A DNA stretch of 64,000 bases from the NCBI RefSeq assembly GCF_007748175.1, contig NZ_CP037422.1, positions 6,092,334 to 6,156,333 of the forward strand, read 5' to 3'. This DNA is from Gimesia aquarii. Its GTDB lineage: Bacteria; Planctomycetota; Planctomycetia; Planctomycetales; Planctomycetaceae. The translations under genes were made by a program, and so were the position numbers. The notes under the pieces are model-generated. The model was not told where the DNA came from. It searched no databases and saw nothing but the letters and a program-made list of their open reading frames with translations. Shown here piece after piece: positions 49,910-64,000 of this stretch (positions are counted from its first letter, which is position 1; the number at the start of each line of letters is the position of its first letter).

Positions 49910-52900
49910 TTATCTTTTGCAATCATAACTTCCATTTTCTCTTTGACGATCATTTGATAATTCATCAAACAAATCTTGAATTTCATCTTGTTCAGAATCT
50001 GTAAATTGGTGCCGTAATTCTCTTGCTAAAATTCGAGACGGTATTGTAGCACCACTTTGTAGCCACAATTTGTTAATGATTGATTTTTCTAATGTATTAA
50101 GCCATTTATGTTTTGCTAAATGATCTTTTACACTTAATTGCTTGAAATTTTTTAGATTATTTTTTAAGTAATCAGGAAGGCCTCCTGTTGGGAATCGTGT
50201 GCTATGATCTCCTTTAGAACCCTTGCCCTTTTTATGACCAAATAAAGGATTTTGATGATGAGTTTCGCCGCCCGATACTCCTTTTTTCTCTCTAAACTTC
50301 TTCTTAAATTTTGCTGATTTTTGATGGATTATATCTTTTCCTAAAGATTCAACGGCCTGACTAGTACCTTTTGCTTGAGCTTTCTTGGCTGCCTTAGTTG
50401 TTCCTTTTTGAATTGCTTCACTGCCAATTTTTTGAGCGGATTTTTTAGCTGCTACTTTTAAGCTAGCTCCACCTAATGTAACTCCAATTTCAAAAGAAGT
50501 TTCTACCCACTCTCCTGCTAGGTATGCTGTGCTAGAAGTTTTTATTCCATCATTCCCTGAATAAGTCCATCTAATACCATATGTTAATCCAAAGGTCAGT
50601 GAATCACCTACTCCGGCTGCAAAATTTGCGGATGTATCAAGCCAGTCGCTTCCCTGTGAATCAATAAATCTGATTGGATTATTTCCAGAATATAAATAGA
50701 GGTCCATACTGTCAAAGTATCCAAGCGGATCTCTTTGAATCCAAACTCCGAGGACAGAATGGTACACACGGTTACGAACGTGAAGCAGCTCTGTTGCTGT
50801 TTCCCACCGATAGCCTGAAGAAAGAGTTTCCCAGTCGAAACTGGAGCTACTGCGAGAACCAAAGCTGGGAGTCAAAAACGTGGGACTGCCGTAACTGTCG
50901 TATGCATAGCGTTCCTGAATATCACCGTTCTCATCACAGATCGCCGTCACATTCCAGTTGCCATCTTGTAATGCGTAGAGGCGTTCATCTAAAGTACCAT
51001 TACCGGTTGTGTCTCTGTCTCGAAGTACCAGATCATCAATATAGCGCAGTCCCCAGACGAGCTGACGTTCGGGGCTGGTTTCGCTGTCGACCCGTTCTTC
51101 AACGACCTGCCAGGAATCAGTGTAATAGAGATGTCGGGTTTCACTCAAACTACCACTGGTATACGATTTTTGAATGATCCGATAATTGCGTCCGTCGTAT
51201 TCATATTCTGAAACGGTATTGCTACCCTCTGTGATTTTCACCAGGCGATTCCAGGCATCATAGGTCGCGCTGAAACTGGTTGTCGGGTCAACGGGTTGAG
51301 GGATCGTCGTCATATTGCCCGCTTTACTGTAAGCGGGAGTAAGCCAACTGGAGCCAGCCGTCTCAGTAATGTCTGTGATTTCGTTGACTTTATTACTGGT
51401 GCGGGCTTGTTGCAGATCCCAGGTTCCGTTGCCAGTATCGTCCTGTTGGAAACCTTTCCAGTTTCCGGTTTCGTCGAGTGACCAGGATTGGGCAAATTTC
51501 AACGTATCGATTCCCGTTTTTTGCGCATTCAGCGCACCGCGTTCTGTTTCTTTTAAACGCTGGAGGCCATCATAGGTATAAGCTTCATCAAAGCTATTGG
51601 TGGTGTCCAGGGGATTGTCACGATAGGTACGATTGGATGCGCGATTGTAGCCATACTGGATGTTGGCTTTATCTGCGGTTGCACCATAATCATACCAGAG
51701 CGAGTCTTTAATCCGTCCGAAGCGATCCAGACCACGATAAATATCTCCGGTATCCGGATCATTGCCTCCCGCTGTGCCAACCAGCGTAAATCTGACCTCC
51801 GGTTCAGAATCGTCGGCAATGACTGGGCTCCCCAAACCAAGGTAGGAATATTCAGCCAGATGCGTGGCGCTGAGATCATCATCCACGATAGCTGCCACAC
51901 GGCTGGCGGCATCATTCATGCTGCTGGCAGAACCGTAGTTGAACGTTAAAACGCGTCCGTCAGGATAGGTGAGGCTATTGGGACGAATTGTGTTGGCACT
52001 GCCATTTGCAAAACCGTATTGAACTTTGGGGCTGGTGCTCACATTCACCCCTCCTGTATGTGACTGATAACCGGTAATAGCCTGCTCAAAGTTATTATAG
52101 GCAAATTGAACCTCGTTGACTATCGTTCCCTGGCCGACATTTGCGTTATCATAGCTGGTGATTTCCGTGTTGAGCCCACGTGAGTCATAAGCCAGTCCAA
52201 TACGACGTACTGCGCCATCCACGCTAGTCCCTAAAGTGGTGACTCGATCCTGAGCAGTTCTCCCCAGTTTGTCATAGTCGATTTCATGAATCGTACCTAG
52301 CTGATCGGTCTGTTTGATTTGCTGCCCCTGTCTGTTGTAGGAGTAGGTGACGACATCGGTACCGTCAACTGAATCAGGATAGGTTTCTTTTTGCAACAAC
52401 GTACTACTGGCGATTTCTGAATCAATTAATGTCGTTCCATAGGTATAAGTAGTGACCTGATTCCCCGTCACCGAGTTTTCAGCAGTTAGAGTGGCGATGG
52501 AGCCATCGGGTGTATATGTCGTGAGAGTGGTACGATTGGTGTCATCTGAAGGGTTGGTTCCCGACGAACTACTAGAGCTGGAAGAAACAGTTGCCTGATA
52601 ATTTTCAATCACTTTGACAGTACGTCCGGCAGCATCATATTCATTGCGTGTTTCCATTCCATCAGGGCCAATGAGTTGATTAACGCGTCCTGCCGAATCA
52701 AAGGCCGTTGTTGTGATCAGCACTGTATCACTGCGAGTGGGGATCGTAGCGGAGCGTGACAGGGCTGTTCCCCCATTGGTGCCATAATCAGCGGTGGCTA
52801 CAAGTCGTCCGATGGCGTCCGGATAATTTGCCAAATAGCTCACGCGTGCTTTGGGTGCGATACTGGGGTTTTGTAGCGCTCCCGTCTGGCTGGCAGGGGC

Positions 52901-55900
52901 ATCGTGATATCGCATTCGCGTGGTGCTCTCGATCACATTATTTGCATCATCATAATCCGTTTCCGTTTGTTCCAGGATTGTATCACCCATGACTGTTCCT
53001 GCTTCGGCATAGCTGGTTTCATCCAGGTCGTAACCCGTATAAGTGGCAGTTTGTCGTCCAAGGCCATCATATTCAAATTTGGTAAACAGATCAGAGCCGG
53101 CAGGAAGTTGTTTCAGTACCTTGCCTGTTGCATCATACCAGGTATTGTCGACCAGACTGTTTCCCACTGTTCCCGTTGTTGGGTCGACGGCATATGTAAT
53201 GGACTGATAGATGCGTCCCAGGTCATCAAATTTATTTTCGGAGCGTGCCAGCAAATTAGACAGGGCCGATGCATTGTACCGCTCGACTTTAATTTCACGG
53301 TCTAGATTGTCATAGTACTGTCTTTGATAAAAGCCTATCTCGCCTTTGGTATCAAAGAGACGATCACGCCAGTCATAATAGAATAAGGTAACTCGCGTGT
53401 CTGACGAGGCGGCGTATAAGGTCTGTTTCGTGAGATTGTTGTCTCCTCCATCAGCACCGTCGTCATATTCATTCTGGGAAATAATGACCATATTATTGCC
53501 AACAGCGCCACCACCTGTAGGATCTTGTTGCGTGGCTCCCGTATCATCGGTGCCCACAAAAACCTGTTCGGGATTATTCCGGACATCAAATACGGTAAAG
53601 GAAATCGTGCCTCCTGGTGATGTGGACCGATTTTGACGTTGCATATTGTCATAACCGTAGTTGGACTGGTCATAGTTTGTTCCTGAGGAGCCTGTACCTG
53701 AAGTAGGAATGGAATGATAGACACGATCGGACTCAAGTAAGCAGCAACCCGTGTATTGGCGAGTGATCCAGCTTACATAAGAAGATTGTGAGAAGGAATC
53801 GGTGGGCAGTAGTTTTCCACTTGTCGAACTGCGAGTCGCTTGAATTCTCTCGAGTGGGTTGCCGTATTTATCAACCTTCGTAATCGTAACTGGATTAATC
53901 AAAGTGTATTGATAGTTGTTTGAGGGGCCTGACTGATAGCCGTTTGCCTGCCAGACCTCGTCTTCGCTCGCATTGGTCTTGTAAACATACCAGGTTGCCG
54001 TACGAATGGTGGTTGCCTGACCATTGAGGTCGATTGTGTGTTCGGGCTGCAATGTCTGAGTTACTCGTCCTTCGTCGTCGATTTCGTAATCGGTGATCAG
54101 GTTTTTTCCGCCTCCCGAGGGGGTTACCCAGCCAGCAGGCTCGTCAGACTGTTGAGTGGTATCGACATCTTCGATCAGCTGAATTAATCCACCCGTTCTA
54201 TTGTCATAAGTCAACTTGTTGATGAAGCCGAGTTCATCTTTGACCCAGGTCAGATTGCCCTCTGTATCATAGACTTCCACTCTGGTATTAGCTGTGCCGG
54301 ACCCATTTTGTGAGACTGAAATAATCGGCAGAGTGATTGTCTTCTGGGCAATTTGCAAGGTTCCCGTATGAAACGTGTAGGAATAGCTGGTCGTGATTGT
54401 CGTGGATTGATTTGAGTCATCAGGATACGTGATTTCTTTTAAGGGTAGATAGATCGTATTTCCACCTGCTGAGTGAGATACATATTCAATTTTGGTAAGG
54501 TTAATAGGAGTTCCGTTTTGACCATGTTGAATTTTGGTAAAAGACGGATAACCATTCGCTGCACCAGTTCCCGTAGTGGAGTAGTATTCGAAAAGATGAA
54601 TGAGTCCCGAGTTATCATACAGGTACTGATATTTACCACCGGAATAGTTTAGTAAATCAGGATACTGTTCGCTATATCCCACGATTGCCGAGGGTTCTGC
54701 TTCCAGAATCACCCGCCCATTAGCATCATATTTTTTAAAGCGACACCACTCATCATTACCAGATTTCATAACTTCGAGCATCGTTTGGCCCACACCATTG
54801 AAATACAGAATATTCTGGCTGGAATCGGGCAGAGTCTGCACGGTTTTATTCACCCAGTAATTGGGATTAAAAGTAGAAACTCCCCCACTGGATGATGAGC
54901 TTATCGCAGAGTTTTCGCTGTAGCTGAACGTAAAGGTTAATGCGCCCCCTTTGTTCCGCTCCAGGACGACTCTCTGGGAGCTATCAAATTCGAAATAATT
55001 GTCGGCATATTGCGCGATCGTCGTATTTGGCGTTGTAAGCGGATCGATACTATCACTTACCATTTGCGCATAAGAACCGGGTAGAACGACATACTTGAGG
55101 CCGTGCTCAAAACCATTCGTTTCATTTAGCTTGTAATATCGATAGTATGTGGTTCCCTGATCAACCCAATTGATGTTAGCAGTGTCCCATTGACTAATCG
55201 TAACCGTCTTTAGGTCATTCAGAGATCCGTCATCAGAAGTGGAGTCGTAGTAGGTGTAATCAGCTTTTGAGATTGTCGTTAGATTTTCAGCTTCATCTTT
55301 AACTTGCAAAGTACACGTTTTGATGAGCCCCTTATGTGCACTTCCATTCTCTGTATCATATAGCAGATAATTAAAATATTGGGTGTAGGTTTCACTTCCG
55401 ACTGCAATGGATCGTTCGACACTAAAGTTTGATCCCGCTCTGACGACTGTGGTCTGATTTCCTCCTGGGCTAATTGAATATTCAAGTTTTCCATAGTTGC
55501 CGGGATCACTAAGTCCGTGGAATCTACTGCGAGTGCCATCAGTGGATAGGAGGAAAAATGTTTCCGTTGCATCATTATAAGAGAGAAACTCGAGGTTTCC
55601 GTTCAAAGTTGTAAACTGTCCCGTTTCGGGGTCTTCTTCAAAATAGACCACATTATTCATATTGCCCACCAGCGCATATTTGGTGGCAGTGACTTTGATG
55701 ATTTGGGGTAGATAAGTCAGGCACCAGTTATAGCCATTTCCCAGATTGACACTACGCTCTAACTGGTTGGAGTAATTTCTTTCATGCGCCCAATACTGTC
55801 CAAAACCACGACTGGCTACATCAACGGCTTGCAGCTGAATTTGACCATCGACGTAGCGGATGGGGTCTTCGGAAACATCACCACAGCCGGCGACTTCTAT

Positions 55901-56755
55901 TCTTGGTTCCGGCACATCTGGTTCAGCACTGCTGGAACTGCTGTCACCATCTCCGCTGCCGCCACTACCACCGCTGCCGCCACTACCTCCACTGCCACCA
56001 CTTGCATCAGACTCAGATGATTCAGAACTGGATGAATCAGAACCAGCTGATTCAGAAGAGTCTCCTGAGCTCTGCGATGAGTCGGAGGTCGTGGATGCCA
56101 TGGATGTTGTAGAGGTTGATGATTCCGAGTTAGAAGACCCTGAATCGGTAGAAGCAGAGGAATCTCCCGGTCCGTCGGAGCTGGAAGAGTCAGATGAATC
56201 TGAAGTTGATGAGGCGGAAGAGTTTCCAGGTTCAGAAGAGGTAGAGGTGGAGCTTTCCGAACCAGAACCAGAACCAGAACCAACGGCTTCCATGCCAGCC
56301 ATCATGGCAAATTGGTCTGCGCTCAGCTCTGGTGCGATATAGAATCCGCTCTTCTCTAGAGTCAAAGGAGGAAACGTTACTTGGATTTCATCCGGCCAGC
56401 CTTCGATAATCGAGGGGTCTGCCGGAAAATCAGGACTTAGGTGTAATTTGATCGTATTGTATAATCCTTGTATTCCTAATGCGGTCCACTCAGGTCCTTG
56501 AATATCCCCTTCAAGACTGAACCAAACTTCAAAGGAACCATCTTTGTTTTGCGTGACAACGAAGACTGCCTTAGCCAGCCCATTCATGACAGGAAACGCG
56601 GATTCCCAAGTACAACTTTTGGATCGGCAATGAAGAAGCTCCAAATCGTAGTCGTCGTTGAACGGTAATAGGTTTCCTGTTGCGCCGTTTAGAGATACCT
56701 GAACAAAATCAGAAATATTCTTCTGCCATTCATTATTTGTAGGTTTAGAACTCAT
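49910..56755 (-). CDS. RHS-repeat protein with putative C-terminal HNH-like nuclease toxin
   Basis: Protein of 2281 residues. AAGGAA precedes the ATG. No classical signal peptide. A Ser/Gly-rich linker covers about 155-280. RHS/YD repeats run for some 1600 residues (YDNRTGGLIQL, YDAAGRTVKV, YNRQGQQIKQTD, FNYGSASSM), ending in the core signature RDPLGYFDSMDLYLYSGNNPIRFID near 2030. The variable 243-residue tip has a hydrophobic stretch, then a basic segment with GGETHHQNPLFG (H2166, H2167) and VKDHLAKHKWLN, an E/H-x-H-type pattern of His-Me finger (HNH) nucleases. RHS shells are released by proteolysis to deliver such tips. Delivery route unclear. Confidence 0.88.
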   Translation of the reverse strand: MSSKPTNNEWQKNISDFVQVSLNGATGNLLPFNDDYDLELLHCRSKSCTWESAFPVMNGLAKAVFVVTQNKDGSFEVWFSLEGDIQGPEWTALGIQGLYNTIKLHLSPDFPADPSIIEGWPDEIQVTFPPLTLEKSGFYIAPELSADQFAMMAGMEAVGSGSGSGSESSTSTSSEPGNSSASSTSDSSDSSSSDGPGDSSASTDSGSSNSESSTSTTSMASTTSDSSQSSGDSSESAGSDSSSSESSESDASGGSGGSGGSGGSGGSGDGDSSSSSAEPDVPEPRIEVAGCGDVSEDPIRYVDGQIQLQAVDVASRGFGQYWAHERNYSNQLERSVNLGNGYNWCLTYLPQIIKVTATKYALVGNMNNVVYFEEDPETGQFTTLNGNLEFLSYNDATETFFLLSTDGTRSRFHGLSDPGNYGKLEYSISPGGNQTTVVRAGSNFSVERSIAVGSETYTQYFNYLLYDTENGSAHKGLIKTCTLQVKDEAENLTTISKADYTYYDSTSDDGSLNDLKTVTISQWDTANINWVDQGTTYYRYYKLNETNGFEHGLKYVVLPGSYAQMVSDSIDPLTTPNTTIAQYADNYFEFDSSQRVVLERNKGGALTFTFSYSENSAISSSSSGGVSTFNPNYWVNKTVQTLPDSSQNILYFNGVGQTMLEVMKSGNDEWCRFKKYDANGRVILEAEPSAIVGYSEQYPDLLNYSGGKYQYLYDNSGLIHLFEYYSTTGTGAANGYPSFTKIQHGQNGTPINLTKIEYVSHSAGGNTIYLPLKEITYPDDSNQSTTITTSYSYTFHTGTLQIAQKTITLPIISVSQNGSGTANTRVEVYDTEGNLTWVKDELGFINKLTYDNRTGGLIQLIEDVDTTQQSDEPAGWVTPSGGGKNLITDYEIDDEGRVTQTLQPEHTIDLNGQATTIRTATWYVYKTNASEDEVWQANGYQSGPSNNYQYTLINPVTITKVDKYGNPLERIQATRSSTSGKLLPTDSFSQSSYVSWITRQYTGCCLLESDRVYHSIPTSGTGSSGTNYDQSNYGYDNMQRQNRSTSPGGTISFTVFDVRNNPEQVFVGTDDTGATQQDPTGGGAVGNNMVIISQNEYDDGADGGDNNLTKQTLYAASSDTRVTLFYYDWRDRLFDTKGEIGFYQRQYYDNLDREIKVERYNASALSNLLARSENKFDDLGRIYQSITYAVDPTTGTVGNSLVDNTWYDATGKVLKQLPAGSDLFTKFEYDGLGRQTATYTGYDLDETSYAEAGTVMGDTILEQTETDYDDANNVIESTTRMRYHDAPASQTGALQNPSIAPKARVSYLANYPDAIGRLVATADYGTNGGTALSRSATIPTRSDTVLITTTAFDSAGRVNQLIGPDGMETRNEYDAAGRTVKVIENYQATVSSSSSSSSGTNPSDDTNRTTLTTYTPDGSIATLTAENSVTGNQVTTYTYGTTLIDSEIASSTLLQKETYPDSVDGTDVVTYSYNRQGQQIKQTDQLGTIHEIDYDKLGRTAQDRVTTLGTSVDGAVRRIGLAYDSRGLNTEITSYDNANVGQGTIVNEVQFAYNNFEQAITGYQSHTGGVNVSTSPKVQYGFANGSANTIRPNSLTYPDGRVLTFNYGSASSMNDAASRVAAIVDDDLSATHLAEYSYLGLGSPVIADDSEPEVRFTLVGTAGGNDPDTGDIYRGLDRFGRIKDSLWYDYGATADKANIQYGYNRASNRTYRDNPLDTTNSFDEAYTYDGLQRLKETERGALNAQKTGIDTLKFAQSWSLDETGNWKGFQQDDTGNGTWDLQQARTSNKVNEITDITETAGSSWLTPAYSKAGNMTTIPQPVDPTTSFSATYDAWNRLVKITEGSNTVSEYEYDGRNYRIIQKSYTSGSLSETRHLYYTDSWQVVEERVDSETSPERQLVWGLRYIDDLVLRDRDTTGNGTLDERLYALQDGNWNVTAICDENGDIQERYAYDSYGSPTFLTPSFGSRSSSSFDWETLSSGYRWETATELLHVRNRVYHSVLGVWIQRDPLGYFDSMDLYLYSGNNPIRFIDSQGSDWLDTSANFAAGVGDSLTFGLTYGIRWTYSGNDGIKTSSTAYLAGEWVETSFEIGVTLGGASLKVAAKKSAQKIGSEAIQKGTTKAAKKAQAKGTSQAVESLGKDIIHQKSAKFKKKFREKKGVSGGETHHQNPLFGHKKGKGSKGDHSTRFPTGGLPDYLKNNLKNFKQLSVKDHLAKHKWLNTLEKSIINKLWLQSGATIPSRILARELRHQFTDSEQDEIQDLFDELSNDRQRENGSYDCKR
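55951..56003 (-). repeat. Tandem Gly-Gly-Ser coding repeat in the RHS linker
   Basis: A run of near-identical 9-bp units encodes about five GGS triplets in a row (residues near 255-270), within a longer Ser-rich linker of about 120 residues. It is a flexible spacer and a likely site of length variation. Confidence 0.85.
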
Positions 56756-57369
56756 ATTCTTCCTTGAATTTGAAATATGTTCTTATGTTTATTTTTATTT
56801 TGATTTTTGTTTAGTTTTAAATGAATATTAGAATCAATGAGCAATAAATATACTTATCTAAAGCATTTAATTAAATGGTTTTATGAATTTTATATATGTC
56901 TTTTTGAACATATTTTACATTGTATACTCTACTTTTATTAATCTATTATGATCTATATTTTTGATCAATACCATTATTTGATATTTAACCCATTGGATTT
57001 ACTCATATGATCACTGTGTACTGAGTTGATGGTAAATAACGACTTTTATCTCCAAGGTTTCGAAGACCAAATTAGATTAGACCAAACTTCGACGACGGTT
57101 CATCAAATCCTGTTTTCAAAGCCATTCACTTTCACTACGCTTTGATTTTGCTTTTGTACAATGATCATGCATTAGTGGGGGGGGAACGTCGGACCAACTA
57201 ACTAAAGGTTCGAGCTTCCAATGCCTTTTACAAATATGTTATTTGATTGCGTTACTTGGAATTGGTCTTCGTATATAGAAGTCTTGTTAATCACAACTTT
57301 TTTATTTCTCACAATCAACTAACGAACTACGACTCGACCCAGCCGGAGTTGAACTGGTAGTCTCTGGTC
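56756..57369. other. AT-rich region upstream of the RHS gene
   Basis: About 610 bp with no gene. It is AT-rich from 56,760 to 57,000 and must hold the RHS promoter. ACTAAAGGTTCGAG at 57,201-57,214 recurs at 57,574-57,587. Confidence 0.45.
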
Positions 57370-57480
57370 ATGTTATTATCTAAATGCGCCCAGGCGATTA
57401 CAGTCATCAATCTCAAAGGAGGCGTGGATAAAACGCATATTACTTGGCTGTTAGCAGGAAACTGTGAAGAGCCCTCGGTT
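57370..57480 (+). pseudogene. ParA ATPase N-terminal fragment, degenerate
   Basis: AITVINLKGGVDKTHITWLLAGNCEE is the start of a ParA/MinD-type ATPase: the deviant Walker A KGGVGKTT has become KGGVDKTH. After about 40 codons similarity is lost and the downstream frame has no ParA features. A relic of a partition gene, consistent with a former plasmid or integrative element. From 57,481 to about 57,777 nothing further is recognised. Confidence 0.7.
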
Positions 57481-57777
57481 CCGAAGACCGTAGTTACTTT
57501 CACAATGTTTTGCTTTTACTTTGATAACGCGCATCTGTGGGGAGATAAATGGGGGCAATCCTTGAGCAAACCGACTAAAGGTTCGAGAGTTCGAATGCTT
57601 CTCCAAAGTTCTAACCAGACAATCTATGGTATTTGAATAGGTCATTTGGAGGTAGTTTGAAATTTCATGTTCGCATATCGAATTTTTGTTTTTTAATCAG
57701 CCGCCCAGCGGGGTAAAACGAACGTATAACCGTTTTCACGTTGACCACGTACCGGCAATACACTCATAAGCAGAATT

Positions 57778-58118
57778 TTCCACCCACTACTGGCTTTAAT
57801 TGCTTCCGCTACCGATAATGAATTGGCTAAATATATCAAATATCTAAAACACGAGAATGCGATTTTGCGTTCAAGACGACCGAGGCAAATCCATACAACT
57901 TACGAAGAACGCCAAACCTTGTTGAAGTATGGAAAGGTTCTTGGTCGAGCGATTGAGGAGCTGAATTCGATTGTCAGCCCAGCAACATTTTCACGGTGGG
58001 TCCGCGAGATGGAAGGAAGGGCAGACCTAAACCAAAGAATCCTAAAAGCGGTAAACGGAAGCCTCAAGAGAGTCGTGAGTTAGTAATCAAGATCACCGGA
58101 TTTATGCGAAATTGTTGA
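57778..58118 (+). pseudogene. Integrase-core transposase fragment with frameshift
   Basis: The open frame reads LLALIASATDNELAKYIKYLKHENAILRSRRP, then RQTLLKYGKVLGRAIEELNSIVSPATFSRWVREMEGR, the N-terminal DNA-binding part of planctomycete integrase/transposases. Near 58,018 the sense switches to another frame: GRPKPKNPKSGKRKPQESRELVIKITGF continues the protein, and TGA follows at 58,116. The rve catalytic domain is missing. So the gene is both frameshifted and truncated. Confidence 0.8.
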
Positions 58119-58143: not shown

Positions 58144-59259
58144 CTATGCCTTGAGTCGCCTTCGGTGAATCAGAGCCATAATACCACAAAGTATACATGT
58201 GAATGCTAAGCCGATCAGACTGATTCTAATAAGAGATGAACGAAAGTCTCCCGTAGTTTCATTTCTGTTTGAATGTGATTCAAAGCGAGTTAACATTTCT
58301 ACCATTGAATCAAGATGTTCGACTCCCCCATTTTTGATTTGTATTGGTTCTTCTTTCTGTGGAAGATATAAAGTTCCCGGAGGTAGAGAAAGTTCCAACT
58401 GGTCATCAAAGGATTTATTAACTTCCACTTTCAAAATATCGACATTGCTTTGCCGTACAATTCGGTTTCTGCCCTCAGTTGTGCTCGCGGTAATATCGAA
58501 ATGAATCTCTTCAATTGATTTAGGGATCCAGACTCTTGGGATCACTTCAACTTGATTGCGGAGTCGTATTTCTTGCATGACTTGTCCGGTATCCGGAGAG
58601 ATGAATTTTCTGCGGATTAATCTGCAGTCATGTAAAACATCAAACCAAAGTTGATCCCGTTGGGGAAGCTCTAAAACATGACATTCCATTCCCTCGAAAT
58701 CTTCAACTCGCAGAGTGTACTTATCACTCATTGCAACTTCACGAAGAGTGAATGGAAAAGTTCCTTCAGGCCGGAACGAAGTCCAGCGTTTAATTGGCCA
58801 AATACCCGTTGCGTAATAGAAGAAACTTTCTTCCATTCGTCCCGGCAAGCGTTGCTGGTTTCTTAATGATGTCACTTCAATTGTTCGGTTGACACCATTA
58901 AATCGGTGAAATAAATCATCCTTCACAAAAGCTTGTTGCTGAAAAGGATCATCAGCCCAATGCAGTCTATCGTGACCGTGTGCGACAAACTGATACATAC
59001 GGTCAGGATATCGGGCTACACTCTCTTGGTAAACATAATAACCGGCTGGATAATTATTCGAATAATTTGAATCTTTGTAAGACACAGAAATACTTTTAAT
59101 AAGATTTTGAGATTCGAGGATCTGTTGTTTTAGTTCTGAGATTGTTAGCGCTGAATTTGGCTGTGATTCGGATTCATTGCTAGCCTCAATAGAATTCAAT
59201 AAACAACAAGTAATCAAAAACGATCTGAATAATATTGAAATGCAGTTAATTACGTTCAT
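58144..59259 (-). CDS. Exported, C-terminally anchored protein, possible LolA-like fold
   Basis: Protein of 371 residues. A signal peptide (about 1-26) is followed by LTISELKQQILESQNLIKSISVSYK, the usual opening of outer-membrane lipoprotein-sorting (LolA/LppX) folds. Mixed strands follow, with YTLRVEDFEGMECHVLEL, YPDRMYQFVAHG and RVWIPKSIEEIHFD. A C-terminal membrane anchor is at about 347-366 with RRRLK at the end. Its ATG overlaps the stop of the upstream gene by 4 bases. It shares layout with that gene but little sequence. Suggested role: binding a lipid-like or peptide ligand outside the membrane. Inferred. Confidence 0.6.
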   Translation of the reverse strand: MNVINCISILFRSFLITCCLLNSIEASNESESQPNSALTISELKQQILESQNLIKSISVSYKDSNYSNNYPAGYYVYQESVARYPDRMYQFVAHGHDRLHWADDPFQQQAFVKDDLFHRFNGVNRTIEVTSLRNQQRLPGRMEESFFYYATGIWPIKRWTSFRPEGTFPFTLREVAMSDKYTLRVEDFEGMECHVLELPQRDQLWFDVLHDCRLIRRKFISPDTGQVMQEIRLRNQVEVIPRVWIPKSIEEIHFDITASTTEGRNRIVRQSNVDILKVEVNKSFDDQLELSLPPGTLYLPQKEEPIQIKNGGVEHLDSMVEMLTRFESHSNRNETTGDFRSSLIRISLIGLAFTCILCGIMALIHRRRLKA

Positions 59260-60542
59260 AGTTTTCGTCTGTTTAGAAAAAAAACAATTGCCAAAACGAT
59301 AATCAGCAAAATATTGCCTCCGATCAAAATTTGACTGAATGGTCTCTTTTTATGGACATTGAAAAATGATTGTTGGCGCCAAGAGTCATTATCTTTTTTG
59401 GCTTTTTCAATTACACGTTTTAAGTCAGCTGGGTTTGACGGAATACGATATTGAACTTGCCCTTCTGGAAATGTACTAGATTCTGGAAGAGTACGATCAG
59501 CTATCATATCACCTGGTGTGTTATAATTCAGTGTAAAATATTCGTCGGGATAAGGGCCATAAGAAATGTCTTTAAGTTCATAAGTGATTTCTACAATGGG
59601 AGTGAATGAAACATATTCAGAATTTGTTTCCCAATTAAAATACTCGACGCGTATTTTTTCAGGTAAATAAAATGTTGTACCTTCGATATTAACACTTCCT
59701 TGATAGTGATACCTTCGAATGATCCTATCGGATGCATCGAACAATTCCCTCGACTCGACTGCATACTTGGAAGTATTGGAAAAATGTAATTTCTCCGTTA
59801 AAGATGAGTTCGAATCGTGAAAAACCAATTCTGTTTTTCCGTCCTGATTGTTCAAAAGAGTCAGCTTGTTGCTCTCTTGTGCATTTTGGGACCAACGGAC
59901 TGGCAAAGGAACTGGCTTTAAACCGACTTCCATAGGGGTTTCGGGAAAAAAATAACCGGCAAGTTTCAGGTAATCAGGCCAGATGAATTTGGCATGAGGG
60001 CTCTCGGTTTTGAGTTCATCCAATGTAGAAATCATTAGCATACAGATTGAATCTGGGACAATAGAATCTGGGACTTCTAATGTCCCTTCAAAGACCTTTT
60101 CCAGTTGGATGGCCACTTCTTGCTTAGTGACTGTTTGGATGAACTGTGTTTTATTTTGCGAGGGCGCTTTCCGAGACAGCACAGTTGGCTTTGTGGGAGT
60201 CATGGACGTTTTTGAGAGATCGTTAGTCATACCTGCGACGTTCTGCAAAGATTCAATTTGTCGAAAGCCACGCGCATAAGGGTGCTGATAACTATAGCGA
60301 GTGAATTGATAGAATCCAAATTCTTCTGAGTAAGCGGGAAATTTTACTTTCTCTTTAAATTCATCGGGAGGTATCAATAACTTTCGTTTTGTGCTCCATT
60401 CAACCGTAAGAGATGGTAATGAGGCGGAATCCGTTTCCAGACGCTGTAGAACGATATCCAATTCTGAAGAAAAAGCAACATTACCCCATACGTTAGAAAA
60501 TAAAAACAGCATTAACACGGTATAGGTACGCCTCAATTTCAT
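59256..60542 (-). CDS. Exported, C-terminally anchored protein, possible LolA-like fold
   Basis: Protein of 428 residues, with AAGGAAGG ahead of the ATG. Signal peptide about 1-25, opening DIVLQRLETDSASLPSLTVEWSTKR, then repeated strands (LVFHDSNSSLTEKLHFS, RRYHYQGSVNIEGTTFYLPEKIRVEYF), and a C-terminal anchor ILIGGNILLIIVLAIVFFLNRRKL. It lies 14 bp after the C39-like gene and overlaps the next gene by 4 bases, so it is part of one operon. No family confirmed; the architecture matches its downstream neighbour. Confidence 0.6.
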   Translation of the reverse strand: MKLRRTYTVLMLFLFSNVWGNVAFSSELDIVLQRLETDSASLPSLTVEWSTKRKLLIPPDEFKEKVKFPAYSEEFGFYQFTRYSYQHPYARGFRQIESLQNVAGMTNDLSKTSMTPTKPTVLSRKAPSQNKTQFIQTVTKQEVAIQLEKVFEGTLEVPDSIVPDSICMLMISTLDELKTESPHAKFIWPDYLKLAGYFFPETPMEVGLKPVPLPVRWSQNAQESNKLTLLNNQDGKTELVFHDSNSSLTEKLHFSNTSKYAVESRELFDASDRIIRRYHYQGSVNIEGTTFYLPEKIRVEYFNWETNSEYVSFTPIVEITYELKDISYGPYPDEYFTLNYNTPGDMIADRTLPESSTFPEGQVQYRIPSNPADLKRVIEKAKKDNDSWRQQSFFNVHKKRPFSQILIGGNILLIIVLAIVFFLNRRKL

Positions 60543-60556
60543 AGTGATACCTTCCT

Positions 60557-61744
60557 TTAATTCGCTATCTTTCGATGAACAACCGAAGAAATGGAAAAGA
60601 ACAGAACAATTCCAGCAACAAGACCTGCAAATGAATCATACAAAAGTCGCTGATTGTGATAGGCTGAACTCGATTCGACAACAGCGATTCCAGTCCATAT
60701 CTGACGAAATTCATCTTCAGTAAATTGTCTCATCGTCGCACTATTTCCATTTAGTGCCCATATGAAACCATCGCCGTGAGAAAACGTAATCACAAAGCTG
60801 CCTTCTGATTTTGCCCCTCCTTCTAGATAGCAAATCGTCGGCCCTCGATGAAATAGTTCTGATGGCGAGATGCGTTTCCCTTTTAGGGGATGCCCCAGAA
60901 GGCTGGAAATACGCATGATCGCAAGAAGTGAAGCTCCTTCCTTAGGTGAAGTAAGATCGTATATGTTTCTCCAGGTGACATCAGAGCCGGAATATTTAAG
61001 GTAAATATAAAGGCAATTGACAGCCCCCATACGAGAAGTACGAACGAGTTCATGATCTGGAATATCGTCAGAAACAGATTCAATATACGATGCGACACTT
61101 GTGTCGTCTGCATACGTGGGAATCGCAAAGATTGGATTCAAAAAAAACAGAAACGATGCGACAATCAACGGCTTTTTTCGGTATCGAGTGATGAGCGTAT
61201 AAAGAATGATAAAGTTCAATACTAAACACAATGTCAATATTCCTGTCAGTAAGCTGTTTCGCTCAGATCGAATCATGGCATAACCTGACCAGTAGTGCTT
61301 AAAATTTTCTATGGGAATCGTGATCTCTGTTCCTGTTGTTCCATCAATATATGTTACCATGTCATTGTTTACTTCAGAAACAAACACGTAATGCCCACTT
61401 GGAGAACTGACATTCCCATACGCAAAGTGAGCAATAAAGGGCGTTTCTAATTCTCCGACCAGCATTTTATCGGTCTTAATGATCCTTGATGGAATCCCAT
61501 GCCTTTCTGAGATCAGAGCTAGATCATATAGACTGATGCCGTTCTTATTGATACGGACTTCAGAAGAGATCATTTCATGCGTAATGTCGCATGAGTAATA
61601 TGTGAGGTAAAGATAGAGTACATTGGGCCCGCAGGAATTGATCTTCTTCCAGATAGGGGCTGGTTGTTCCTGCGGTGTCTCCTCTTGTAATCCACAGAAC
61701 ACAAGTATTATATAAAATAAATAAATACTCTGCGGAGTCATCAT
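60557..61744 (-). CDS. Membrane protein with two C39-peptidase-like domains, one inactive
   Basis: Protein of 395 residues. An N-terminal hydrophobic segment (about 5-20) is followed by domain I with NSCGPN (C38), SGHYVFVSEV (H118) and VTYIDGTTG (D134), the C39 Cys-His-Asp set. Two hydrophobic stretches follow: GILTLCLVLNFIILYTLI, and one resembling a second signal peptide ending AIPTYADD. Domain II repeats the fold (RMGAVNCLYIYLKYSG, EGSFVITFS, WALNGNS), but the Cys, His and Asp positions are Met, Ser and Asn. A C-terminal anchor ends the chain. No ABC ATPase or exporter is fused or nearby. It lies 94 bp after the double-glycine peptide gene, its likely substrate. Confidence 0.75.
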   Translation of the reverse strand: MMTPQSIYLFYIILVFCGLQEETPQEQPAPIWKKINSCGPNVLYLYLTYYSCDITHEMISSEVRINKNGISLYDLALISERHGIPSRIIKTDKMLVGELETPFIAHFAYGNVSSPSGHYVFVSEVNNDMVTYIDGTTGTEITIPIENFKHYWSGYAMIRSERNSLLTGILTLCLVLNFIILYTLITRYRKKPLIVASFLFFLNPIFAIPTYADDTSVASYIESVSDDIPDHELVRTSRMGAVNCLYIYLKYSGSDVTWRNIYDLTSPKEGASLLAIMRISSLLGHPLKGKRISPSELFHRGPTICYLEGGAKSEGSFVITFSHGDGFIWALNGNSATMRQFTEDEFRQIWTGIAVVESSSAYHNQRLLYDSFAGLVAGIVLFFSISSVVHRKIAN

Positions 61745-61838
61745 AAAAGAAATTCTCTAGAATACGGTAGCTTAAGTAGAAAGGCATGCCCCGAGAGTAT
61801 CGATTCGAGACATGCCGGACGTCCTGGAAAGGCTTCTA

Positions 61839-62165
61839 TCAGCTACCATTACATGTATTTCGTAAAGTACTGACAGCGTCGCAGGGAGTTGAGGAGTTTA
61901 AACAACACCATATTCCGTTAACATGATAGTCTCCATGTGGATTTTCCGTTGACCATCGCCAACACAAACGTCGATTACACGTGGTCTGGTTTGGCCTCTC
62001 GCATCTTTTAGACACCCAGTCATAGCAAGTGGCACCTCCAAGGATTGTCGCTGCTTCTGCCGCACTGACATCCTCACCGGTTATAGAACTCGATGAGACT
62101 TCGGTGAGTAAAACACCACTTCCGATCACAAATAACAACAGCAACAAAAATCTTTTGTAAAACAT
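61839..62165 (-). CDS. Cys-rich peptide precursor with export signal and double-glycine leader
   Basis: The start at 62,165 follows AAGGAG; an ATG 14 codons earlier overlaps the previous stop but has no such site. 108 residues: a hydrophobic signal (RFLLLLLFVIGSGVLL), then the leader VSAAEAATILGG. It matches the bacteriocin rule LSxxELxxIxGG in spacing (S-11, E-8, I-4, G-2, G-1). The mature part would be 64 residues with eight Cys (3, 11, 19, 24, 43, 44, 51, 61 counted after GG), including a CC pair, giving up to four disulfides. Combining a Sec-type signal with a GG leader is unusual. Confidence 0.72.
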   Translation of the reverse strand: MFYKRFLLLLLFVIGSGVLLTEVSSSSITGEDVSAAEAATILGGATCYDWVSKRCERPNQTTCNRRLCWRWSTENPHGDYHVNGIWCCLNSSTPCDAVSTLRNTCNGS

Positions 62166-62203
62166 GTCATCATACTCCTTTAGAAAAGAGGGAATGTGAA
62201 ACC

Positions 62204-63355
62204 TCATTCAGTGTTTGGTGAGGAACGAGGTCTTGAAACGCTAAGGACTACGGCAGATGCATGCGAACAAGGGCAAAAGGTAGCCTGGATTTGTTCTGAT
62301 GTCAGGTCTTTTAACTGTGGAACCAACCAATTAGCAGCACGTTCGACAGAATTACGTTTTTCGTGTTGATTTACTAGATCACTGGGGAGTCTCATTAGTA
62401 ACTCAGCCAAATGACTGGTAGCGAGTAGGCGCCCTGTATCGCTATTGGCAAATGCTGTACTCTGAGGTGGTGCAGGAGAATTGTCATTTCGCCACCAGTG
62501 AATCGTCCAGTATCCTGATGGTGACTGAGATTTTATCGCTTGTGTCATTTTGCCGACAATCATGTTTTTCACACGGGAGCGCATGTTTTTTGATAATAGA
62601 AAGTGGCGTTTGTCGGCGAAATAGATGGATATGAGCGCTTCAAGACGATGGACTCCGCCGCAACTTGCCTCGCTGAAATCTCGCGAGAGAAGCTCTTTTG
62701 CCAGATCGTCAAAACACCAACTCTCTCCGTATTTGTTTTTATATGGGCCTGACTTCTTGAGGTAACATGAAAAGCCAATAGCAGACCATTCGAGCTCTTT
62801 CTGCTTCAAATGAAATCGCGCCACAGATTGCTTTAGGACATCCTTGACTGATCCCATCGAATTCTGCAGTTGAATATTAGTTGATTCTGGGATCTCCAGT
62901 TGACCAAGAGAAGCAAGAACTTGATCATGATGATATTCCGATGGCCTGGATTTTGCGATGATTGATGAGAACCCGATTCCATCTCGCGTTTTTACCATCG
63001 CGGGGGACCCAAATAAGCGGATACCAACCCTTACATCAAGTAGTGAATCAACGAGAAGTCTGTCTTGGACGGCAGGACTACTGTAACCTGATCCATGAAC
63101 CCTCAGTACATGAAGAACTTCCGAGATACGGCTATTTGACGGGTTATGTAAACGGATATTGTTCGAGATATATGTTAAGGTGCTTTCATCAAGATTAATT
63201 AATGGTTCGTGTTTTGAGTGAGAGCTTGCATCTATATTATAAGAAGTACCCAACTCAAGATGAGTAGAATTGGACGTTTCTTTCTCACAGGAGGCCTGAA
63301 TTAAGGGCGACAATAGTATTAGCGTGAATACAGCATGTGTGAGTTTGTTCGTCAT
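62204..63355 (-). CDS. Secreted protein of alpha/alpha-toroid type (prenyltransferase/terpene-cyclase-like)
   Basis: Start at MTNKLTHAVFTLILLSPLIQASC, a signal peptide; the ATG 18 codons upstream is less likely. 383 residues, mostly helical. GGVHRLEALISIYF and SQSPSGYWTIHWWRN (a QSPxGYW repeat) recall the helix-loop repeats of squalene-hopene cyclases and protein prenyltransferase beta subunits; LLATSHLAELLMRLP resembles a further toroid helix. No DxDD or zinc site seen, so it may be a binding scaffold. It is the first gene of the operon and 38 bp before the peptide gene. Family uncertain. Confidence 0.5.
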   Translation of the reverse strand: MTNKLTHAVFTLILLSPLIQASCEKETSNSTHLELGTSYNIDASSHSKHEPLINLDESTLTYISNNIRLHNPSNSRISEVLHVLRVHGSGYSSPAVQDRLLVDSLLDVRVGIRLFGSPAMVKTRDGIGFSSIIAKSRPSEYHHDQVLASLGQLEIPESTNIQLQNSMGSVKDVLKQSVARFHLKQKELEWSAIGFSCYLKKSGPYKNKYGESWCFDDLAKELLSRDFSEASCGGVHRLEALISIYFADKRHFLLSKNMRSRVKNMIVGKMTQAIKSQSPSGYWTIHWWRNDNSPAPPQSTAFANSDTGRLLATSHLAELLMRLPSDLVNQHEKRNSVERAANWLVPQLKDLTSEQIQATFCPCSHASAVVLSVSRPRSSPNTE

Positions 63356-63574: not shown

Positions 63575-64000
63575 ATGGCTATCAATTCAAAGACAAATCG
63601 TTTCTGGGAGATCTTCACAATCCTGGTGATCATTGGAATTCTGTGTCTGCTCTTGATTCCAGACGTACAGCAGGCTGTAAACAGTGGCCCTAGAGAACGT
63701 TTTCGGAACCAGATGAAAGCTGTTGGACTGGCTCTGCATCAATATCAAGACGCGTATGGCTGTTTACCTCCCGCAGCACTAAAAGGTGAAGAGGGAACAC
63801 CTATGCATAGCTGGCGAGCCTTGCTACTACCACTGCTCGAGCCTTATTTCAAGACTAAGAGTCGACCGTATGGCTATCAGTTTGACGAACCCTCGGATAG
63901 TGAAACAAATCAGAAAATTGCATCACAGAATCCTCATTTTTATCGTTTCATTATTACGAGAGATGACAATACAAAACGAACATCAAAATTAGTCGCAATC
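63575..64000 (+). CDS. DUF1559-like pilin/secretin-type protein, N-terminal part
   Basis: Open from the ATG at 63,575 to the window edge (142 codons, no stop). A membrane segment at about 12-32 (FWEIFTILVIIGILCLLLIP) is followed by VNSGPRERFRNQMKAVGLALHQYQDAYGCLPPAAL, the DUF1559 helix, and MHSWRALLLPLLEPYF. DUF1559 proteins are abundant planctomycete type II/IV pseudopilin-like proteins; the classical prepilin GFTLIE site is not seen. AAAAGG precedes the ATG. Divergent from the peptide operon. Confidence 0.82.
   Translation, partial: MAINSKTNRFWEIFTILVIIGILCLLLIPDVQQAVNSGPRERFRNQMKAVGLALHQYQDAYGCLPPAALKGEEGTPMHSWRALLLPLLEPYFKTKSRPYGYQFDEPSDSETNQKIASQNPHFYRFIITRDDNTKRTSKLVAI

Follow-up and report, generated by a model that had tools for sequence, protein, structure and literature searches.

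How would a peptide carrying a double-glycine leader be matured when no ATP-binding cassette (ABC) exporter is encoded beside it? A locus of the planctomycete Gimesia aquarii raises this question. It lies in a stretch of 64,000 nucleotides (contig NZ_CP037422.1, positions 6092334 to 6156333; hereafter termed the window, to which the coordinates of the locus and its flanks below refer). Between 58144 and 63355, the list of open reading frames (ORFs) and the sequence gave five co-directional genes on the minus strand, which we term genes A to E: a toroid-like protein (A), a precursor peptide (B), a C39 peptidase-like membrane protein (C) and two anchored LolA-like proteins (D and E). Among the five proteins, no match to an ABC ATPase was found in Pfam or NCBIfam, and none of genes A, B, D and E passed a curated cut-off in the two databases. 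Both the uninterrupted run of five genes and the absence of an ABC ATPase had been noted in an earlier, sequence-only reading of this DNA, which also suggested that the peptide is exported first and cut later. The present analysis supports that suggestion as a prediction. The outcomes that the earlier reading had listed as contradicting it did not appear: most peptide relatives retain a Gly-Gly type of site, most of the C39 ORFs have such a peptide close by, and domain I of gene C is predicted to be exported. We regard the operon as likely to produce and process an exported disulfide-rich peptide, which would cross the membrane first and then be cleaved after Gly-Gly outside the cytoplasm; the export segments of the peptide-linked C39 proteins, the leader code and the lack of an ABC-fused C39 in the home genome all point to this order of events.

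Gene B (61839-62165) encodes a precursor of 108 amino acid residues (aa). By reading, its likely start is the ATG at 62165, nine bases after a Shine-Dalgarno-like AAGGAG (62180-62175). The N-terminus, MFYKRF, is followed by a hydrophobic run, and residues 6-20 (62106-62150) were called as an export segment; note that the export and membrane segments in this study were called by hydropathy windows, not by signal-peptide or topology programs. The rest of the leader, residues 21-44 (62034-62105), ends in ...DVSAAEAATILGG, also given as ...EDVSAAEAATILGG, and bears Val at -12, Ser at -11, Glu at -8, Ala at -7, Ile at -4 and Gly at both -2 and -1. It fits the double-glycine pattern, that is, GG, GA or GS preceded by hydrophobic residues at -4, -7 and -12. 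The predicted mature core (61842-62033) comprises 64 aa, approximately 7.4 kDa, with eight Cys residues. Unlike double-glycine leaders that stand alone at the N-terminus, that of gene B is preceded by a hydrophobic segment, and the export signal attributed to this peptide from the sequence is supported by hydropathy.

Gene C (60557-61744; 395 aa) was matched by Pfam Peptidase_C39 (PF03412) with an E value of 1.9e-24 over two stretches, in line with the two-domain membrane protein anticipated earlier. Domain I (61250-61666) is intact, retaining Cys38 (61633), His118 (61393) and Asp134 (61345), with Trp32 at position -6 of the catalytic Cys, while domain II (60653-61042; profile A3, E=3.0e-12) is degenerate and has Gly, Ser and Asn, respectively, in the three catalytic columns. 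C39 peptidases are ordinarily a part of ABC exporters and act on the cytoplasmic side. The NCBIfam models for ABC transporters covered gene C over the peptidase part only, and Pfam gave no ABC match. The C39 profile matched ComA (E=9e-16), the LahT domain 6mpz (8.3e-13) and 4ry2 (1.3e-11). Besides an N-terminal hydrophobic segment, gene C has three membrane segments, two in the stretch that separates the domains and the third at its C-terminus. With this layout, export of domain I, which we predict, would place domain II on the outer side as well.

To what extent the pairing of gene B with gene C recurs was assessed in 170 genomes of the same family and 392 genomes of the phylum. A search of the 170 genomes with the peptide alone yielded one significant non-self match (E=7e-6), which had three internal stop codons; the remaining E values were above 6e-4. 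One of these weak matches (genome G024; E=0.0048) was a real precursor adjoining another C39 gene (locus L121). As the peptide cores are too variable, relatives were sought via the C39 gene. Gene C itself found matches in 16 of the 170 genomes, the home genome included, and a profile of twelve related C39 domains found them in 57 of the 170 and in 102 of the 392; many of the matches at the phylum level lay in frames long enough for an ABC fusion. We fetched 57 regions, 17 from the gene C search (including the home locus) and 40 from the profile list. The latter were picked by an open frame shorter than approximately 650 aa and not by their neighbours; other rows with short frames were not fetched, and the sample is therefore non-random. 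Fifty-five of the 57 regions hold 57 stand-alone C39 ORFs, and the other two (L056 and L063) hold only ABC-fused C39.

A peptide candidate was defined as a short ORF on the same strand within 3.5 kb of a C39 ORF, possessing an export segment, a Gly-Gly, Gly-Ala or Gly-Ser site and at least four Cys residues thereafter. Such candidates were found near 41 of the 57 stand-alone C39 ORFs, or 39 after two were set aside; the rows set aside as spurious were those at L150 and L158 and one of the two at L155. Under a stricter first rule the count was 35 of 57, and we relaxed it because real candidates overlapping longer ORFs were lost. In all, 48 peptide rows (47 distinct) lay on the same strand as C39, whereas the opposite strand of these stretches gave 4; control searches of other sequence, from which nine C39 loci were left out, gave 6 rows in 503,474 strand-bases. 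The arrangement thus exceeds what chance would give. With an additional filter for hydrophobic residues at -4 and -7, the same strand, the opposite strand and the other sequence retained 22, 0 and 2 rows, respectively. The relatives mostly bear GG, GA or GS, and by eye GQ, GL or GR stands in place of GG at L054, L049, L152, L128 and L145. Two or three peptides occur in tandem at several loci. The home genome itself has two further exported C39 loci, L119 (G000:C1:2586000-2603000) and L120 (G000:C1:5663000-5680000), and at the former two tandem precursors carry the textbook leaders PLSLDQLQAVTGG and PLSFEQLHAITGG. At the phylum level, 20 C39 regions were read, and four of them (L189, L190, L194 and L199) resemble the system, most of the others being different C39 types; we accepted the peptide rows at L190 and L194, and those at L193, L198 and L199 looked spurious.

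The leader code described for C39 of ABC exporters consists of hydrophobic residues at -4, -7 and -12 (PMC10885120), and the published leader pattern is L-12 xxx E-8 L-7 xxxx GG (PMC6959990). We set the site from a Gly-x dipeptide and the next Cys, blind to the leader residues; this rule misplaced the site at least at L049:4108, L051, L054 (two rows), L131 and L155, which were kept in the statistics. Across 44 peptides, the hydrophobic fraction was 0.88 at -12 and 0.80 at -4 (each 0/2000 shuffles) and 0.64 at -7 (P=0.0005), compared with 0.38 in shuffled leaders. When each locus contributed a single peptide (n=36; 33 at -12), the corresponding fractions were 0.91 (0/5000), 0.81 (0/5000) and 0.61 (20/5000). 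Glu occupied -8 in 13 of the 36 leaders (2.1 expected), and Ser or Thr occupied -11 in 19 of 33 (6.7 expected). The residue at -1 was Gly in 27, Ala in 12 and Ser in 5 of the 44 peptides, the only three residues that the site rule permits. Altogether, the family leaders, as far as residue statistics can tell, match the code known from ABC-borne C39. The cores contained an even number of Cys residues in 31 of 36 cases, as expected if disulfides form outside the cytoplasm. We also considered that the peptide is an ordinary Sec protein processed by signal peptidase alone, with a coincidental Gly-Gly and a C39 serving some other role. By eye, plausible signal peptidase sites do precede the leader in some relatives, but neither the position-specific leader pattern nor the same-strand linkage fits a coincidence, and we judge this explanation very unlikely.

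The side of the membrane on which cleavage would take place was approached from the C39 proteins. A hydrophobic segment lies N-terminal to the C39 domain in 56 of the 57 stand-alone proteins and in all 39 of the peptide-linked ones; the single protein without it, at L147, is cut short by a contig end and is probably ABC-fused. After the C39 domain, 40 of the 57 and 29 of the 39 proteins, respectively, have a membrane segment. The home genome, a single contig with a completeness of 99.8%, encodes three C39 proteins at E<=0.01 in frames of 399, 541 and 538 aa, and no ABC-fused C39 was found in it at that threshold. These frames are too short for an ABC fusion, so that no candidate for cutting the leader in the cytoplasm was found there. 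The findings bear on a cytoplasmic route, in which the hydrophobic segment belongs to a long leader that is read by an ABC exporter encoded elsewhere. Classical Gly-Gly leaders do serve ABC exporters, but with no ABC-fused C39 in the home genome and with N-terminal export segments on the C39 proteins of the set, we find this route barely credible.

Several observations weigh against cleavage by an exported C39 and should be set beside the evidence above. No peptide was found by our rule for 16 of the 57 C39 ORFs (18 after the set-asides), some of which lie at contig ends and some of which have GQ, GL or GR. Position -3, which is outside the known code, was mildly enriched in hydrophobic residues (0.58; 47/5000; one peptide per locus, n=36). 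The positive-inside signal was moderate, Lys and Arg being more frequent after the membrane segment in 26 of 40 proteins, equal in 5 and fewer in 9. Finally, all of the 18 ABC-fused domains compared have Gln six residues before the catalytic Cys (-6, the position of papain Gln19), but among the 54 stand-alone domains of the fetched regions that retain the Cys just 5 do, and Lys, Arg and Glu occur at this position among the stand-alone homologues.

The last point concerns the active site directly. Trp occupies -6 in 8 of the 54 stand-alone domains, including that of gene C. In CvaB, replacing the Gln with Ala or Asn is reported to cost little, while Lys, Glu and His abolish secretion at 37 °C (PMC3335142). 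Since CvaB tolerates Ala and Asn at the same Gln, the changed domains may well be active, but their activity may differ. One conceivable difference is that the loss of Gln (with Trp in this sub-group) lets C39 transfer the cleaved chain to an amine instead of water, which would make it a sortase-like attaching enzyme; because of the same tolerance in CvaB, we hold this transpeptidase reading to be highly improbable. In the C39-domain tree, 30 ABC-fused rows fell nearly together (two changes); the deep forks were not resolved, and thus we do not claim a single origin. As a separate observation, the exported C39 homologues L151:6518-7078 and L158:7594-8238 lack the catalytic Cys in the alignment (Ser stands there in L151) and are possibly binding-only versions.

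The genes neighbouring C39 indicate which of the five constitute the recurring unit. We looked within 2.5 kb for proteins of 320-540 aa with an export segment and a C-terminal membrane segment, and such an anchored protein of the LolA-like type accompanied 40 of 56 C39 genes (L147 left out) on their own strand and none on the opposite strand. A LolA-like profile, built from 14 of the 45 distinct anchored proteins tested plus two others, matched 34 of the 45, or 20 of 31 when those used to build it were excluded. Judging from the neighbour counts, the common unit consists of the peptide, C39 and an anchored LolA-like protein. As for the five-gene set as a recurring unit, it holds for these three components, while the toroid gene belongs to one sub-group only.

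In the operon, the anchored LolA-like proteins are gene D (59256-60542; 428 aa), with a C-terminal membrane segment followed by NRRKL, and gene E (58144-59259; 371 aa), with one followed by HRRRLKA; both additionally have an N-terminal hydrophobic segment. The structural model of gene E (16 rows; mean predicted local distance difference test score, pLDDT, 78.6) gave 48 Foldseek matches at E<=0.001, including 3buu at E=4.4e-9, and in VIA it reached Z scores of 14.9 (a DUF1329 protein) and 14.3 (LolB). According to this model, gene E is of the LolA/LolB-type fold. Gene D is connected to gene E via a common relative, L050:7622-8962, that both match, and we regard it as LolA-like on this sequence link. 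The LolA-like assignment of the sequence-only reading is thus borne out by the predicted structure for E, and for D it depends on the link.

Gene A (62204-63355; 383 aa from this start) has an N-terminal hydrophobic segment, as do 25 of the 26 rows in its family alignment. Its model (26 rows; pLDDT 83.2; predicted template modelling score 0.81) resembles GH105 hydrolases, terpene cyclases and transcobalamin with Z scores of up to 16.9 in VIA; Foldseek gave no match at E<=0.001. The alpha/alpha-toroid guessed from the sequence is supported by the model and VIA, Foldseek alone not being significant. Over the 26 rows, ten columns are invariant, including five of His and one of Cys, and the invariant residues include H82, H142, E187, C232xG234xH236, H315 and H365. 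These Cys and His columns suggest a metal site. A LanC-like zinc cyclase was considered for gene A but not adopted; LanC was absent among the 50 matches listed for the model in VIA, which does not exclude a kinship. None of nine toroid relatives passed a Pfam cut-off, and no significant PDB sequence match was found for them. The toroid gene adjoins C39 in a sub-group of approximately 10 loci. We rejected it as a specific marker of the system, as its family is near-universal (167 of the 170 genomes) and only the sub-group lies beside C39. The family was noted for gene A and for L065:14028-15224, and a paralogue is found just beyond the window end.

Combining these lines of evidence, we propose the following for the preferred order of export before cleavage. 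The precursor would be exported via Sec by its N-terminal hydrophobic segment. Beyond the inner membrane, the anchored domain I would read the leader by the code of ABC-borne C39 (-12, -8, -7, -4 and Gly-Gly) and, judging from the leader code, the catalytic residues and the topology, cut it after Gly44. Domain II would be a dead copy, probably only binding the leader or a partner. Once released, the core of 64 residues and eight Cys would form its disulfides as it folds outside the cytoplasm, a possible reason for the use of Sec instead of an ABC exporter. A probable task of the two anchored LolA-like proteins is to hold the peptide or a lipid partner or to pass it on, and the toroid protein might be an accessory of the sub-group, perhaps a metal-dependent modifying enzyme. 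As a general, undescribed route in these bacteria, exported C39 might function as a dedicated signal peptidase, in addition to the ordinary one, that serves a large and variable disulfide-rich set, with anchored LolA-fold proteins carrying the product onward; we put this forward tentatively, as an extension that is more doubtful than the proposal for the operon itself.

What the product does was considered from the cores and the neighbouring genes. It could be a secreted antibacterial or signal peptide, a disulfide-bonded component of the surface or envelope, or a partner-binding protein handed over by the LolA-like proteins. At L122 and L125, leaders are better kept than cores (e.g. 0.92 vs. 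0.42 identity), as suits secreted effectors, but in the other pairs compared (L119, L124 and L049) conservation of the core is not below that of the leader, and an immunity gene was not recognised. Neighbours resembling glycosyltransferases and pseudopilins suit surface structures. We lean, with roughly even confidence, toward a secreted effector or a surface component.

The same neighbours are relevant to another explanation, namely that the exported C39 works for a machine of secretion or surface assembly, where its target is a different partner and the GG peptide is a bystander or a structural subunit. FapD of Pseudomonas offers a precedent, as it is an exported C39 needed for amyloid secretion, and papers of 2017 and 2018 describe its substrate as yet to be found (PMC5557850, PMC6173800). 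A membrane-protein family occurs near 16 of 55 loci, one member of which matches PMT_2 glycosyltransferases, and pseudopilin-like DUF1559 genes lie near the operon and near the C39 of L050. On the other hand, the leaders studied here carry the C39 code, and the Fap proteins are said to have no canonical sites (PMC5557850). Furthermore, no beta-barrel or amyloid-repeat match was found in Pfam among the five proteins, and neither a FapF pore nor FapB/FapC subunits were recognised in the operon, the five products being of other folds or types (no Fap-specific profile was run). We therefore consider a FapD-like role unlikely and retain maturation of the GG peptide by the exported C39 as the preferred reading. 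Apart from this, a different C39 type with Gln at -6, FapD-like by appearance, was seen at L062:8506-9294 and L150:7521-8246, and a neighbour of the latter has a sub-threshold PF13557 match, a possible FapD-FapF-like pair.

Additional features of the loci and the flanks are as follows. Pfam scans of single relatives bore out the PMT_2, DUF1573 and DUF1559 assignments (DUF1559 additionally next to the operon), the DUF1573 case being a C39-DUF1573 fusion at L119. MauE-type neighbours were found at five loci, and two of the three proteins scanned passed the Pfam cut-off. L064:3583-4803 encodes an exported C39 (weak match) with a fused rhodanese domain (PF00581), and its neighbour is a MauE-like membrane protein, which may point to thiol or disulfide chemistry. 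In the window, the DUF1559 pseudopilin-like gene (63575-64000, plus strand) is divergent from the operon. Directly downstream of the operon, a 2281-aa RHS-repeat protein (PF05593) is encoded at 49910-56755 on the minus strand, and by eye a stretch upstream of the more distant C39 locus L199 resembles an RHS end. The interval between the RHS gene and the operon (57000-58100) looks decayed and has no confident genes; a small ORF in it (57823-58083, plus strand) had no Pfam match.

If the preferred reading is true, C39 leader cleavage is not tied to ABC export, and a large number of secreted disulfide-rich peptides, with a dedicated maturation kit, are still to be read in this bacterial group. 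As approximately 40 exported C39 genes adjoin peptides with collectively C39-type leaders, the substrate, the cut site and the partners are directly testable. The sequence-only reading knew of no described system with this combination. That holds for the full combination, as the open-access literature searched yielded no report of an exported C39 together with a Sec-plus-double-glycine precursor, subscription papers being mostly outside the search; it does not hold for the exported C39 itself, for which FapD is a precedent.

The system shares the Cys-His-Asp of C39 and the double-glycine leader, with hydrophobic -4, -7 and -12 and Glu at -8, with the peptidase-containing ABC transporters of the PCAT/AMS type (LahT, ComA, PCAT1 and CvaB). 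It differs from them in that there is no ABC transporter, the protease is exported and membrane-anchored, the precursor has its own export segment, and Gln at -6 is usually missing. Class II bacteriocins and microcins have the same leader code and small, variable cores, but they leave by ABC exporters (PMC6959990), whereas here an export segment precedes the leader and the cores are rich in Cys, mostly in even counts. The predicted fold of gene E is shared with the LolA/LolB carriers and RseB/MucB; in contrast to these, gene E has a C-terminal membrane anchor and is tied to a peptide-protease pair. Another close parallel is FapD, a periplasmic C39 that needs its Cys38 and belongs to an exported class called uncharacterised (PMC5557850). 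Both are stand-alone C39 proteins exported via Sec, as far as can be predicted here from the N-terminal hydrophobic segment, with no ABC part. FapD is paired with the FapF outer-membrane pore and amyloid subunits that have no canonical leaders, while the C39 proteins studied here are paired with Cys-rich leader peptides and anchored LolA-like proteins. Thus, an exported C39 was already known from FapD, and what would be new is a leader code that is read outside the cytoplasm.

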